64,000 nt of DNA from Verrucomicrobiaceae bacterium E54 (GTDB lineage: Bacteria > Verrucomicrobiota > Verrucomicrobiia > Verrucomicrobiales > Akkermansiaceae): assembly GCA_022548915.1 (NCBI GenBank), contig JAKZES010000017.1, forward strand, positions 1-64,000, written 5' to 3'. The notes beneath the pieces were generated by a model. The model made no database searches and had not been told where the DNA came from. It saw nothing but the letters and a program-made list of their open reading frames with translations. Position 1 is the stretch's first letter; each line of letters begins with the position of its first letter. Shown in pieces: positions 1,246 to 41,804 of this stretch. The position numbers and the translations under genes are program-made.

Positions 1246-4038
1246 ATGTTACGAAACAGACTCTTGGTGGCCCTGGGACTGGCCGGGACGGTTTCGGCTT
1301 CCGCCAACACCTTCGAGGAAGCCCGGGTTCCGCTGGAGACCCGCTGCCTCGAATGCCATCACCCGGAAAAAGCCAAGGGCGGGTTGCTGCTGACAACGCG
1401 CGAGCAAATGCTCGCCGGCGGCGACACCGGCCCAGGCATCAATATCGGGGATCCGGAATCCTCGTTGCTGCTCGGGAGAATTCTTCTCGATGCGGATCAC
1501 GACGACCTGATGCCGCCCAGGGGAGGCCCGCTCGCCGCCGGAGAGATCGAGGCGATCCGCGCCTGGATCTCCGAGGGCGCCCCGTGGCCGAACGGAGTGA
1601 CGCTGGCACCGCGGGCCGACACCGCCCTGCCCGGATGGAATGCCCCGCCTGACCCGGACATCGCCTCGATCGAAGCTTTCCCCAAGATGGTCACTCTGGA
1701 GACCGCCGCCGACTTCCACCGCGTCGTGGTCATCGCCCACATGAAGGATGCCGCCACCCACGACGTGACACGCCAGGTGCGGGCCCGCCTGGCCGATCCG
1801 GCGATCGCCTCGCTCACCGACACCCGGCTGGATCCCCTTGCGGATGGAACCACCACGCTCGAGTTGGAATACCGGGGCCTGACGACGTCGGTGCCGGTCG
1901 TGGTGAAGAACGCCGCTCAACCCCGCCCGGTTTCCTTCCAACTCGACGTGATGCCGGTGCTCACATCGGCCACCTGCAACACCGGCTCATGCCATGGATC
2001 GGCACGGGGCCAGGACGGCTTCCACCTCACCCTCTACGGCTACGACCCGGAGGGTGACCACTTCCGGCTCACCCGCGAAATGGCCGGCCGCCGGGTCAAC
2101 CTGGGACTACCCGAGGAATCCCTGCTGCTGACCAAGGCGATCGGCGCGGTTCCCCACACCGGCGGCAAGCTTTTCGACGAAAACAGTCCGGAATATCAGA
2201 CCCTGCTGCAATGGATCCGGGATGGAGCCGGCTACGACGAGGGTGAGATCCCCCACCCCACCGGCATCGAGGTCGAGCCACCCCAACTCGTCCTCAAGGG
2301 CGGCGACCTTGAGATGCCGATGACCGTTCGAGCGACCTACTCGGACGGGACCGACCGCGATGTCACGGCTCTTTCCAGCTTCTCCACCTCGAATGACCAC
2401 GCGGTCGAGATCGATCCCCGCACGGGCACCGCCCGGTCCAAGAACCGCGGCGAAGCCTTCCTGCTCGCCCGCTTCCACACCTTCACCGAGGGCTCCCAAG
2501 CCATCGTGATACCCCGCGAGGTCGAGTACACCCGGCCATCGCTCCCGGAGTTCAACGGGATCGACCACCACGTCCACGAAAAGTTGCATCGGCTCCGCCT
2601 CATTCCCTCGGAGCTTTCCACCGACGAGACCTTCGTCCGGCGGGTCTACATCGACATCATCGGGCGCGTGCCAAGCGTCGAGGAAAGGGCGGCCTTCCTT
2701 TCCAACAAGTCGGCCGACAAGCGCGCCGAACTCGTCGAGGCGCTCATCGCCCGCCCGGAGTTCGCCGAGATGTGGGTCATGAAGTGGGCCGAGCTGCTAC
2801 AGATCCGCACCATCAACAACGGCCCGAACCAGGTGTCCTACAAGGCCGCCCTCGGCTACCACGGCTGGCTGCGCGAGCGCATCGCCTCCAACACCCCGTT
2901 CAACGAGATCGCCCGCGAGCTCCTCGCCTCGGAAGGCGGCACCTTCGACAACCCGCCGACCAATTTCTTCCAGATCGAGCAGGACGTGCTCAAGCTCACC
3001 GAGAACGTCGCCCAGGTCTTCATGGGCACCCGCATCCAGTGCGCCCAGTGCCACAACCACCCCTTCGACCGGTGGACGATGGACGACTACTACGGTTTCG
3101 CCTCGTTCTTCGCCCGGGTGAAGCGGAAGCGCGCCGAAGACCCGCGGGAGCGCGTGGTCTTCGAGGGCGGAGGCGAGATCCGGCACCCGGTCAGCGGGGA
3201 AAACGTCGCACCCCGCTTCCTCGGATCGACCGCACCCGCCGAACTCGGCCGCGAAACCCGGCGCAAGGCCGTCGCCGACTGGCTCGCCTCGCCCGACAAC
3301 CCCTGGTTCGCCCGGAACGTCGTAAACATCGTCTGGGCGCACTTCTTCGGCGTCGGCATCACCGATCCGGTCGACGACGTCCGCATCTCCAACCCGCCAT
3401 CCAACCCCGCACTCCTCGACGCGCTGGCGCGGAACTTCACCGCCTCCAACTACGACATCCGCAGTATCGTTCGGGAGATCTGCAACTCCCGCACCTACCA
3501 GCTCTCCAGCCGGACCAATGCGACCAATGCCGGGGACGAACGGAACTTCTCGCGGTCGCTGATCCGGCGCATGCGGGCGGAGGTGCTGCTCGATACGATC
3601 TCACACGTCACCGCGACCCCGAACAAGTTCAAGGGCCTGCCCCTCGGCTCGTCCGCCGTCGAGATCGCCGACGGCAACACCTCGACCTACTTCCTCACCA
3701 CTTTCGGCCGCGCGAAGCGGGCCACGGTCTGCTCCTGCGAGGTCAGGATGGAGCCGAACCTGTCCCAGGCACTCCATCTCCTGAATGGCGACGCCACGCA
3801 CCGCCGCATCAAGCAGAGCCCGGTCGTGCGCACCCGCCTCGACGCCGGCCAGGAGCCGATGGAGATCGTGCGGCATCTCTACCTGCGCGCACTCGGCCGG
3901 GATCCGACGGCCAGGGAATCCGAAGCCCTGGCCGAGCACCTCAACGAGGCGAAGGGCAGTCCCGCCAGAACCCGCGAGATCCTCGACGACATCTTCTGGG
4001 CGCTGCTCAACTCCAAGGAATTTCTCTTCAACCACTGA
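1246..4038 (+). CDS. exported PSCyt/DUF1549-DUF1553 cytochrome-like protein
   Basis: A 930-residue protein with an N-terminal signal peptide and a c-type haem motif CLECH at residues 34-38, followed by the planctomycete-type cytochrome c domain. The middle has an Ig-like (Big_2-type) domain. Then follow DUF1549 (PSCyt2), with the signature CAQCHNHPFDRW, and DUF1553 (PSD1) at the C-terminus. A second Cys/His cluster (CNTGSCHG) lies between. Such proteins are abundant in Planctomycetes and Verrucomicrobia, often beside sulfatases and DUF1501 proteins; their biochemical role is unknown, though periplasmic redox chemistry is likely. The ATG at 1246 gives the signal peptide directly. Unlike the copy at 28936-31347, no DUF1501 gene follows. 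Confidence 0.92.
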   Translation: MLRNRLLVALGLAGTVSASANTFEEARVPLETRCLECHHPEKAKGGLLLTTREQMLAGGDTGPGINIGDPESSLLLGRILLDADHDDLMPPRGGPLAAGEIEAIRAWISEGAPWPNGVTLAPRADTALPGWNAPPDPDIASIEAFPKMVTLETAADFHRVVVIAHMKDAATHDVTRQVRARLADPAIASLTDTRLDPLADGTTTLELEYRGLTTSVPVVVKNAAQPRPVSFQLDVMPVLTSATCNTGSCHGSARGQDGFHLTLYGYDPEGDHFRLTREMAGRRVNLGLPEESLLLTKAIGAVPHTGGKLFDENSPEYQTLLQWIRDGAGYDEGEIPHPTGIEVEPPQLVLKGGDLEMPMTVRATYSDGTDRDVTALSSFSTSNDHAVEIDPRTGTARSKNRGEAFLLARFHTFTEGSQAIVIPREVEYTRPSLPEFNGIDHHVHEKLHRLRLIPSELSTDETFVRRVYIDIIGRVPSVEERAAFLSNKSADKRAELVEALIARPEFAEMWVMKWAELLQIRTINNGPNQVSYKAALGYHGWLRERIASNTPFNEIARELLASEGGTFDNPPTNFFQIEQDVLKLTENVAQVFMGTRIQCAQCHNHPFDRWTMDDYYGFASFFARVKRKRAEDPRERVVFEGGGEIRHPVSGENVAPRFLGSTAPAELGRETRRKAVADWLASPDNPWFARNVVNIVWAHFFGVGITDPVDDVRISNPPSNPALLDALARNFTASNYDIRSIVREICNSRTYQLSSRTNATNAGDERNFSRSLIRRMRAEVLLDTISHVTATPNKFKGLPLGSSAVEIADGNTSTYFLTTFGRAKRATVCSCEVRMEPNLSQALHLLNGDATHRRIKQSPVVRTRLDAGQEPMEIVRHLYLRALGRDPTARESEALAEHLNEAKGSPARTREILDDIFWALLNSKEFLFNH

Positions 4039-38009: not shown

Positions 38010-38263
38010 GAAGCTGCCATTGTTCCCATAATTCCATGGGGATGTCGATTTGATCGGCACCCCCCTTTCGGGTGACGAGAAGTCCGTTCCCGGGATCGCG
38101 TGCATGAAAATCCCACCTCCATCATCCATCCTCTTCATCCATCTTCATCCCGTCGATCAAGCAATCCACCGCCCGAGCCCTCTCCGGCCCCCAATCCCGC
38201 CTTGAATTGCCTCCGGCACCATGCATCCTCCCGCCCCGCTTCCGGCGCCCGGCGCCGCTTCCC

Positions 38264-39559
38264 ATGGCCTCTCGAACCTTCCAAGCCCTGCCGGGATTCC
38301 GCGACTTCCCACCGCGGGAGTGCGCCGTGCGCAATTATCTCTTCGAGACTTGGCGCCAGGTCGCCCGCACCTACGGCTTCGTCGAGTACGATACGCCGGT
38401 GCTCGAGGACACCGGACTCTACCTCAAGAAGTCCGGCGGCGAGCTCTCCTCCCAGCTGTTCCGCTTCGAGGACCAGGGCGGGCGCGACGTCTGCCTGCGC
38501 CCGGAGGTCACCGCCTCGCTGGCCCGCATCGCCGCCCAGCACCAGCGCGAGTTTCCCAAGCCGCTCAAGTGGTTCGAGATCGGCCAGTGCTACCGCTACG
38601 AAAAGCCGCAGAAGGGCCGCGGCCGCGAGTTCTACCAGTTCAATGTCGACATCCTCGGCGAGGCCGGCCCGCGCGCCGATGCCGAGCTGATCGCCCTCGC
38701 CGTCGACACCATGCGCGCCTTCGGCTTCGGCGACGGCGACTTCGTCGTCCGCGTCTCGGATCGCCAGGCCTGGCTCGACTTCGCCTCCGGGCGCGGCATC
38801 GACGAGGAACGCATCCCGGACTTTCTCCAGATCATCGACAAGCTCGAGCGCGACAAGCCCGAGAACTCGGCCGCCAAGCTCGCCGACTTCGGCCTCACCC
38901 TCGACGAGATCCAGTCCTTCATCCGTTCGCCGGAAAATGCCTCGCTCGCCTTCGAGGCGATCCGCGAGGACCTCGCCGCGCGCGGACTGGAAAGCTTCGT
39001 GGAACTCGACCTCTCCATCGTCCGCGGCCTCGCCTACTACACCGGCGTCGTCTTCGAGGTCTTCGACCGCAGCCGCTCGATGCGCGCCGTCGCCGGCGGC
39101 GGCCGCTACGACACGCTCGTCTCGACCATCTCCGACGGCTCGGTGGACCTGCCGGCCACCGGCTTCGCGATGGGCGACTACGTCATCCGCAACTTCATCG
39201 AGGAGCACACCGACGCCCGCATGCGGATGGAAGTGTGGCTGCAGCGTCAGGCGGCCGCCTGCGACGTCCTGCTGGTGCTCGCCGACGAATCGAAGCGCCC
39301 GGAGGCGCTCAAGATCCTGACCGAGCTGCGCGAGGCCGGCATCTCCTGCGACCTGCCCTTCGCCACCGGCAAGCTCAACAAGCAACTCAAGCGCGCCGAG
39401 CAATCCGGCGCCCGCTTCGCCCTGGTCATCGGCAGCGAGCTCCCCGAACTCCAGCTCAAGATCCTCGCCTCCCGCGCCGAGGAGACCTGCCACGTCCTCG
39501 GCCTCGCCGAATGGCTCACCGACCGCCTCCAGCAACCCGACGGCCCGCTCCTGGCCTAG
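38264..39559 (+). CDS. hisS: histidyl-tRNA synthetase
   Basis: 431 residues from the ATG at 38264. Class II motifs are clear: motif 1 near YDTPVLEDTGLY, motif 2 in FEIGQCYRYEKPQKGRGREFYQFNVDILG (read as adjoining segments), His-specific DLSIVRGLAYYTG, motif 3 AGGGRYD, and the C-terminal anticodon-binding domain from about residue 340. It charges tRNA-His. aspS follows with only a GxxExxY cassette between them. hisS-aspS is a common gene order, which shows where the insertion occurred. Confidence 0.96.
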   Translation: MASRTFQALPGFRDFPPRECAVRNYLFETWRQVARTYGFVEYDTPVLEDTGLYLKKSGGELSSQLFRFEDQGGRDVCLRPEVTASLARIAAQHQREFPKPLKWFEIGQCYRYEKPQKGRGREFYQFNVDILGEAGPRADAELIALAVDTMRAFGFGDGDFVVRVSDRQAWLDFASGRGIDEERIPDFLQIIDKLERDKPENSAAKLADFGLTLDEIQSFIRSPENASLAFEAIREDLAARGLESFVELDLSIVRGLAYYTGVVFEVFDRSRSMRAVAGGGRYDTLVSTISDGSVDLPATGFAMGDYVIRNFIEEHTDARMRMEVWLQRQAAACDVLLVLADESKRPEALKILTELREAGISCDLPFATGKLNKQLKRAEQSGARFALVIGSELPELQLKILASRAEETCHVLGLAEWLTDRLQQPDGPLLA

Positions 39560-39564
39560 ATTCC

Positions 39565-39586
39565 GGACCAGGATGGATAGGATGGA
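39565..39586 (+). repeat. left inverted repeat of the GxxExxY cassette
   Basis: A 22-bp arm (contains ggaccaggatgg) that is the reverse complement of 39970-39991 at 21 of 22 positions. It starts five bases after the hisS stop codon. The outer flank is attcc. Confidence 0.75.
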
Positions 39587-39962
39587 TGTGATGAATTTGA
39601 AGGATGAGACCGGAACGATCATCGGCATTGCCTATGAAGCGATGAACGAACTAGGTTATGGATTCCGGGAGAAGGCCTACGAGCGGGCGATGGTCCGCGA
39701 ATTTCAGCTCCAATCGATTCCCTACGACCAACAGCGCCAGTTCCCACTGAACTACAAGGACACCCTCATCGATACGCTCATTCCCGACCTGATTGCCTAC
39801 GACTCAGTGATCATCGACACCAAGACCATCAAAAAGATCACCGATCGGGAACTCGCCCAGATGCTCAGCTACCTCAAGGCCACCCGACTGCCGCTCGGAC
39901 TCATCATCAACTTCGGCAACCCAAAGGTCGAAGTGAAGAGAGTCTATCCTCTTTCAAGATAG
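39573..39962 (+). CDS. GxxExxY family protein (PD-(D/E)xK fold)
   Basis: 129 residues from the ATG at 39573; ATGs at 39582 and 39591 are equally possible because the start lies in a ggatgg-type repeat. GFREKAY (G30, E33, Y36) is an exact GxxExxY signature. The nuclease-fold strand follows: D72 in PDLIAYD and D82-T-K84, where the family usually has E-x-K. The function of this family is unknown. The reading frame starts inside the left inverted repeat and ends just before the right one, so gene and repeats form a unit inserted between hisS and aspS. Confidence 0.9.
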   Translation: MDRMDVMNLKDETGTIIGIAYEAMNELGYGFREKAYERAMVREFQLQSIPYDQQRQFPLNYKDTLIDTLIPDLIAYDSVIIDTKTIKKITDRELAQMLSYLKATRLPLGLIINFGNPKVEVKRVYPLSR

Positions 39963-39969
39963 AATCCAA

Positions 39970-39991
39970 TCCATCCCATCCATCCTGGTCC
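39970..39991 (-). repeat. right inverted repeat of the GxxExxY cassette
   Basis: A 22-bp arm (contains catcctggtcc), reverse complement of 39565-39586 with one mismatch. It ends 13 bases before the aspS ATG. The outer flank is atttcc, close to the attcc on the left. Confidence 0.75.
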
Positions 39992-40004
39992 ATTTCCACG
40001 CACG

Positions 40005-41804
<1,800 letters not shown>

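Follow-up and report, generated by a model that had tools for sequence, protein, structure and literature searches.

Between the genes hisS and aspS of Verrucomicrobiaceae bacterium E54 lies a 427-bp cassette which we consider, with a probability of about 60%, to be a mobile unit whose nuclease recognises the cassette's own arms. The cassette is probably one copy of a widespread element type of about 430-500 bp, composed of one PD-(D/E)XK nuclease gene and two inverted arms. Each arm of this element type has an ACC-containing leader, followed by about three copies of a short word at fixed spacing. The gene and its arms go together, words and spacer lengths agree within a cassette, and arm features follow the protein; at slots between genes the cassettes are gained, lost and exchanged as whole units. 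From these sequence patterns we infer that the nuclease probably recognises the arms. The window, meaning the whole stretch of 64,000 nucleotides that was analysed, belongs to a 5.9-Mb genome of 255 contigs. The cassette arrangement is not an assembly artefact, since two cassette-bearing members of the genus (G003 and G004) are single-contig genomes.

Anatomy of the cassette and its protein

The features of the locus, in window coordinates, are as follows.

38207..39559, + strand: hisS, flanking gene (open reading frame; name from an earlier sequence-only reading and from our reading of the translation)
39565..39991, + strand: whole cassette, 427 bp, with inverted arms; present, absent or replaced as a unit within the genus
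39565..39592, + strand: left arm, GGACC plus A, then three 9-nt words
39571-39579, + strand: left-arm word 1, GGATGGATA
39580-39588, + strand: left-arm word 2, GGATGGATG
39589-39597, + strand: left-arm word 3, TGATGAATT, degenerate, extending beyond the 28-nt arm
39573..39962, + strand: GxxExxY protein gene, 129 aa, predicted PD-(D/E)XK nuclease fold (open reading frame, profiles, residues, model)
39964..39991, - strand: right arm, which reads GGACC plus A, then three words
39985-39977, - strand: right-arm word 1, GGATGGATG
39976-39968, - strand: right-arm word 2, GGATGGATT
39967-39959, - strand: right-arm word 3, GGATTCTAT, degenerate
40005..41804, + strand: aspS, flanking gene (open reading frame; one match each in 17 of 18 genus genomes)

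The 22-bp core of the left arm (39565-39586, GGACCAGGATGGATAGGATGGA) and the reverse complement of 39970-39991 are identical at 21 of 22 positions, just as the sequence-only reading had described them, and the pair goes even further: a repeat finder extends the arms to 39565-39592 and 39964-39991 (28 nt with 89% complementarity), and among the non-overlapping inverted pairs that it lists in 1.6 kb this one is the longest. Absent from that reading was the design of the arms, which consist of GGACC plus one nucleotide (GGACC+N) and then three tandem 9-nt words (GGATGGATN; the third degenerate). The start codon does lie inside the left arm, as had been noticed, where the first ATG of the open reading frame at 39573-39962 is found, with further in-frame ATGs at 39582 and 39591. 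The similar outer flanks that had been pointed out (attcc and atttcc) are too short to carry meaning. The inverted-repeat score of the cassette is 41, versus 32 for the top of 488 control intervals from the same set of loci. The gap between hisS and aspS is 445 nt in the cassette-bearing source genome and 30-57 nt in six of the eight genus genomes that have no GxxExxY gene at this position; in the remaining two it is 100 and 143 nt. The hisS open reading frame as called starts with TTG, and its true start is probably further in.

GxxExxY proteins are, to our knowledge, a common family without a known function. That the cassette gene belongs to this family, as first read from its letters, is confirmed by profile matches above the curated cut-offs of both TIGR04256 GxxExxY (E 1.1e-35, 122.5 bits, cut-off 35) and PF13366 PDDEXK_3 (E 6.5e-34, 117.2 bits, cut-off 22). 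Among Pfam and NCBIfam profiles at E<=1, no families other than nuclease families match the gene, and in Pfam the only match is PF13366. The D, the K, the acidic residue two before the K ((E/D)xK) and the GxxE glutamate are kept in all 123 of 123 aligned proteins. A structure model of the protein (mean pLDDT 94.8) resembles, by structure comparison, PD-(D/E)XK DNA nucleases of the Cas4/lambda-exonuclease type, the best solved match being Cas4 SSO0001 (Z 9.8, rmsd 3.5 over 101 residues); a search for sequence relatives with a solved structure gave no convincing match (best E 0.5). With the catalytic residues placed on the modelled core fold, the protein is predicted to belong to the PD-(D/E)XK superfamily. 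The dN/dS ratio is 0.03-0.13 in 12 pairs of GxxExxY genes, several of them with near-saturated dS. The idea of a plasmid- or phage-borne element was dropped: with one GxxExxY protein as query at E 1e-5, matches were found in 6 of 72,556 plasmid records and in no phage record.

Arms and protein within one genome, the genus and other phyla

There are nine PF13366 genes in the source genome, and all nine have inverted arms visible by eye; eight of the nine score above every control, and the copy at C179:58218 is marginal with a score of 26. The nine cassettes have nine different arm sequences (for example ACCGCAAAGACGCGAAG, ACCACGGATGAACGCGGATGG and GGACCAGGATGGATAGG) built on a common plan, a leader with ACC and then about three word repeats with a period of 9-11 nt. 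By the names read from the translations, one of these cassettes appears between pheS and pheT, and another between the genes of a histidine kinase and a response regulator. Several cassette sites are beside aminoacyl-tRNA synthetase genes (hisS-aspS, pheS-pheT, and after an apparent asnS in Flavobacterium), which may be chance, the names of these neighbours (loci L001, L005 and L221/L229/L236) coming in part from reading the translations. At another locus (L009, about 3064-3093), a cassette arm seems to provide the stop codon of the upstream gene.

Across the genus, TIGR04256 is matched in 17 of 18 genomes by 49 rows, 46 of which could be scored, leaving out two matches at contig ends and the second fragment of a broken gene in G013. 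Clear arms (score >=34) are present at 37 of the 46 copies versus 0 of 488 control intervals, although at two of the 37 (G007_C14 and G016_C142) the score rests on arms in another register or on alignments into the flanking genes; nine copies are without clear arms at this score. The controls for the genus, like those for the wide set below, were chosen outside the element region, replacing an earlier pool that contained inverted-repeat loci themselves. Comparison of the flanks sorts the copies into shared sites, and the orientation is identical at every shared site. On a tree of 45 proteins, each of at least 100 aa, arm type goes with the protein clade and not with the site. The proteins at the hisS-aspS site come from at least two clades and have two arm types, and of the four with ACCGCAGATG arms one (G012_C110) is not placed with the other three; the metH site carries proteins of two clades, one of which groups with the proteins of site S05, including one with nearly identical arms; and at site S00 (ten genomes) all proteins belong to a single clade, whose three subclades each have a distinct arm type, G014 being a variant. 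Between different sites, the mean arm score is 43.2 for pairs with a protein similarity of at least 0.7 (5 pairs), 21.2 at 0.5-0.7 (39 pairs) and about 12 below 0.5 (509 pairs). Over the 37 armed loci minus one with a protein shorter than 100 aa, the Mantel correlation of arm with protein similarity is r 0.70 within sites (0 of 1000 permutations as high), and between sites it is weak and depends on few close pairs (r 0.17, equalled or exceeded in 1 of 1000 permutations).

A wide scan of the LGPGLLES clade against a species-genome collection returned at least 559 relatives, and the best 80 loci of this one clade were kept, including one genus locus (L180, the same as L049). They come from Verrucomicrobiota, Planctomycetota, Pseudomonadota, Bacteroidota, Cyanobacteriota, Chloroflexota, Acidobacteriota and others, and include one MAG titled as an archaeon. 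Two of the 80 were too short to score. Arms are present at 56 of the remaining 78 with a score >=34, versus 5 of 902 controls, and at 67 of 78 with a score >=28, versus 12 of 902; 22 of 78 are without clear arms at a score of 34. The arm grammar of the wide set is ACC and then CRCNRAG three times, and 41 of the 78 loci have three exact CRCNRAG words in both arms. In these 41, the left and right arms have spacers of equal length in 98% of cases (46% between cassettes) and agree in 83% at the variable word positions (45% between cassettes), and their spacer letters agree in 59%, with a background of 46%. Equal spacer lengths combined with unlike spacer letters are what would be expected of a protein of fixed geometry that reads the words, and selection on base pairing is disfavoured because pairing would also keep the spacer letters complementary. 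Arm differences in the sense RNA likewise give no excess of G.U-compatible changes (101 compatible, 110 not), and the idea of an RNA stem under selection finds no support from either the spacer letters or this comparison.

For the 61 loci with three words in at least one arm, with the spacing read from one arm, we mapped the arm features onto the protein tree. Spacing class (1-1, 1-2, 2-2 or 2-3) requires 14 changes versus 31.5 when shuffled, with 0 of 200 shuffles as low; word position 5 requires 7 versus 19.5-19.6 (0 of 500 as low), word position 2 requires 13 versus about 19.1 (0-1 of 500 as low), and host phylum requires 25 versus 39.8. All 18 proteins of one supported block, drawn from many phyla, have spacing 1-1; class 2-2, considered by itself, shows hardly any clustering (9 changes versus 11.2, 22 of 500 as low). 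Among the comparisons listed, similar cassettes of the wide set are mostly at shared sites within a family or class. One Flavobacterium cassette (L221) has two tandem right arms where its close relative (L229) has one. The sequence-only reading had suggested that the nuclease perhaps acts on its own ends; this gains indirect support from arm words and spacing that follow the protein across phyla and from catalytic residues that are intact in 123 of 123 aligned proteins, and cleavage or transposition would be a candidate activity.

Slot turnover and arms without the gene

The junction of hisS and aspS could be read in 17 of the 18 genus genomes, our own included. A cassette with GGATGG arms is there in five of the 17 (with the gene broken in one), a cassette with ACCGCAGATG arms in four, and the remaining eight are without a GxxExxY gene at this place. 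The sequence-only reading would have been refuted had all relatives carried the same cassette here with diverged arms, and they do not. Among the eight, one slot contains an element of 100 nt whose inverted arms are built on another word, three contain single arms like those of S23-type elements, and four are gaps of 30, 39, 46 and 143 nt, the longest with a possible arm remnant. With slot states assigned by eye, and on a midpoint-rooted species tree from aspS, hisS and metH (in which G007 fills 41% of the alignment), slot state requires 10 changes versus 10.2 when shuffled, 128 of 200 shuffles being as low; all four sister pairs on the tree differ in slot state.

A second slot is found in metH, which could likewise be read in 17 of 18 genomes and is one gene in six of them; in 11 it is split so that the first domain is separate from the remainder. 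The split is always at one place, and the split junction is the cassette slot (L254-L270). It contains a GxxExxY cassette in five genomes (of two types), a gene-less arm pair in one, a decayed remnant in one, gaps of 16, 18 or 68 nt in three, and in one (G013; L262, about 990-1510) an S23-type cassette, so called from reading its four-helix-type protein and not by profile.

At such slots the gene and both arms are exchanged while the flanking genes stay. The supposition that the gene and its arms move as a unit is therefore well supported: the hisS-aspS slot holds different GxxExxY genes, each with matching arms, slot state is scattered over the species tree, and similar proteins at different sites have similar arms. 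Exchange of the gene and arms as a unit is thus strongly supported. The alignment of junctions with and without the cassette that had been proposed as a check yielded the cassette-less slots; we found neither an empty site exact to the base nor a target-site duplication, the intergenic junctions of relatives being too diverged for base-level alignment, nor did we find recent, near-identical copies at two different sites. Homologous recombination between alleles may account for some of the exchange and simple inheritance for some of it, since orientation is constant at shared genus sites and similar cassettes of the wide set are often at a shared site.

Arms also occur on their own. The GGATGG core (<=2 mismatches) is found 27 times in our genome versus once for the control, and two of the 27 are in the cassette. 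There are seven facing core pairs within 1 kb, one of which is the cassette, and five gene-less pairs of 68-144 bp in which 17-21 of the 22 outer bases match; the repeat finder lists one of these five (L012), and we recognised the other four by eye before scoring them. Gene-less pairs of this kind are what non-autonomous derivatives would form. An 863-bp pair at C192 was considered as a larger cassette and rejected, as it reads as separate arm elements around another gene. Two gene-less arm pairs (L018 and L024, about 1400-1680) are near copies with partly similar outer flanks, and a longer repeat may have been copied; in G006 (C135:1767-4193), three inverted pairs of GGATGG arms lie about 1.1-1.2 kb apart, possibly by tandem duplication.

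In a sample of the class comprising 141 genomes, an exact CRCNRAG arm occurs in 62, a GxxExxY gene in 82 and both in 54 (Fisher p 2.8e-10, odds ratio 12, the genomes not being independent), and with two large gene-poor groups removed the association has an odds ratio of 5.75 (p 1.2e-4). The 62 genomes contain 1487 exact arms, 337 of them in one genome, versus 3 for the reversed pattern. Eight of the 62 arm-bearing genomes are without a GxxExxY match, and 28 of the 82 gene-bearing genomes are without an exact CRCNRAG arm. Within the genus, GGATGG arms are frequent (18-33) in G001, G006, G007, G008 and G011, all without a GGATGG-type cassette at hisS-aspS, and the core is near absent in some other genomes; a second arm type is likewise loosely tied to its cognate gene. 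For these two arm types, the notion that an abundance of gene-less arms requires the cognate gene is not strictly borne out. The sequence-only reading had counted arms found mostly without GxxExxY genes as evidence against itself, and taken literally this is what we find.

Known systems, rival explanations and a possible mechanism

RAYTs are tyrosine transposases, and insertion sequences and MITEs have terminal inverted repeats around one gene as well as gene-less derivatives. The GxxExxY cassette shares with insertion sequences and MITEs the inverted ends around one gene and the gene-less forms, but it contains no transposase (Pfam and NCBIfam, E<=1), no target duplication was seen at junctions too diverged to be aligned base by base, and its arms are repeated words, with each gene copy having its own. 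The nucleases Cas4, RecB, lambda exonuclease and Hjc appear similar in the PD-(D/E)XK fold and catalytic residues, as judged from the model, and we know of none among them that is packaged between cognate arms. Compared with REPIN/RAYT, the cassette has a PD-(D/E)XK nuclease of about 130 aa in place of the tyrosine transposase and hence no REP-associated transposase, about three tandem words per arm with a spacing code, several gene copies per genome each with its own arm sequence, and slots that turn over fast. The likeness is in the logic: REP doublets are inverted repeats dispersed extragenically, and a specific enzyme gene has been proposed as the agent of their spread (PMC3116915); inverted doublets dispersed beyond a dedicated enzyme gene are also what the cassette arms form.

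In anatomy the closest system is the 23S rRNA intervening sequence (IVS) with its S23 protein (PF05635). The Coxiella IVS is 428 nt long with a 28-bp stem (one mismatch and a bulge), has one small open reading frame in its loop and is cut by RNase III in vitro (PMC4990558). The resemblance extends to about 430 nt, inverted ends of about 28 bp, one small open reading frame, sporadic occurrence and preferred sites. Unlike an IVS, our cassette lies between the protein genes hisS and aspS and not in rRNA, encodes a nuclease instead of a four-helix-bundle protein (PF13366 and not PF05635 at E<=1), and has arms without a sign of selection on RNA pairing. The cassette thus resembles REPIN/RAYT in logic and the 23S IVS in anatomy, and it lacks a defining feature of each. 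Our own genome (G000) also has ten S23 / 23S_rRNA_IVP genes (PF05635; L038-L047), six of them between clear inverted arms of other words, and an Rfam search at two of these loci (L038 and L044) found no rRNA.

This likeness in anatomy (PMC4990558) could point to an RNA-level element, whose arms would pair in the transcript; RNase III would cut the stem, and the insert would be tolerated through its removal from the mRNA, with no need for the protein to act on the arms. Such removal may explain why inserts of this kind are tolerated in operons, and many insertions are between co-oriented genes; the S23-family genes give 6 of 10 between clear inverted arms versus 0 of 150 controls, an S23-type cassette occupies the split-metH slot of one genome, and S23-like single arms occupy the hisS-aspS slot of three. 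We nevertheless think this explanation unlikely, as spacer letters hardly match though spacer lengths do, the sense RNA has no G.U-compatible excess, and base pairing by itself gives no reason for words and spacing to follow the protein. Nor did the cassettes searched contain any Rfam family at threshold, the window giving one match below its gathering score and 14 loci giving a single tRNA.

Somewhat better placed, yet still improbable, is the possibility that the arms are an independent dispersed repeat family (REP- or MITE-like, moved by something else), with GxxExxY genes as passengers between two copies and the slot differences arising by homologous recombination between species. The abundance of arms without a gene, arm numbers that do not strictly track the cognate gene and the constant orientation at each genus site are all in line with it. 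But a passenger would not be flanked, at different sites and in different phyla, by a matching pair of arms with the word and spacing class of its own clade. The arms of S23-type cassettes use other words, and nine genes with nine arm sequences in one genome are unlike capture by one repeat family. The strong purifying selection indicated by dN/dS, together with the wide spread of the gene, could also point to a nuclease with a host or defence function, whose arms are regulatory (terminators or mRNA-stabilising hairpins) and whose turnover is the horizontal exchange of a useful gene; we regard this as very improbable, given that the same slot is commonly decayed, gene-less or short in members of the genus and that hairpins need no word-and-spacing code tied to a protein.

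We therefore favour a mobile unit whose nuclease recognises its own arms, which might function as follows. The nuclease would bind the three-word arms as DNA and nick or cut at them, and repair of the cuts would insert, remove or swap the cassette and spread the gene-less pairs, with slots between co-oriented genes being what selection tolerates. The cassette would then work like the REP/RAYT system with an unrelated, small enzyme. More tentatively, and with the balance of our judgement still short of it, GxxExxY cassettes could be autonomous mobile elements of a new class and among the smallest known. A lone PD-(D/E)XK nuclease would drive them, reading as DNA an arm that is coded by three words and their spacing; protein and arm would co-diverge as a specificity code across bacteria and archaea, and S23-type cassettes and 23S rRNA intervening sequences would be a parallel line of the same architecture. 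The newness in this proposal rests on the comparisons with known systems above and on the putative mechanism. A search of the open-access literature (subscription papers and preprints being outside it) found no description of the GxxExxY cassette, and searches for arm-like words of 15-18 bases returned unrelated papers only; the name GxxExxY itself is mentioned in passing in PMC8934634.

If the nuclease does act on its own arms, this would give a function to a large protein family and explain the origin of a large class of dispersed repeats, and the naturally occurring pairs of protein and arm would be a ready specificity code, of word and spacing, for a small nuclease. The movement of single-ORF intervening sequences of about 430 nt would also become directly testable, since S23-type cassettes share their anatomy and at least one slot with GxxExxY cassettes.
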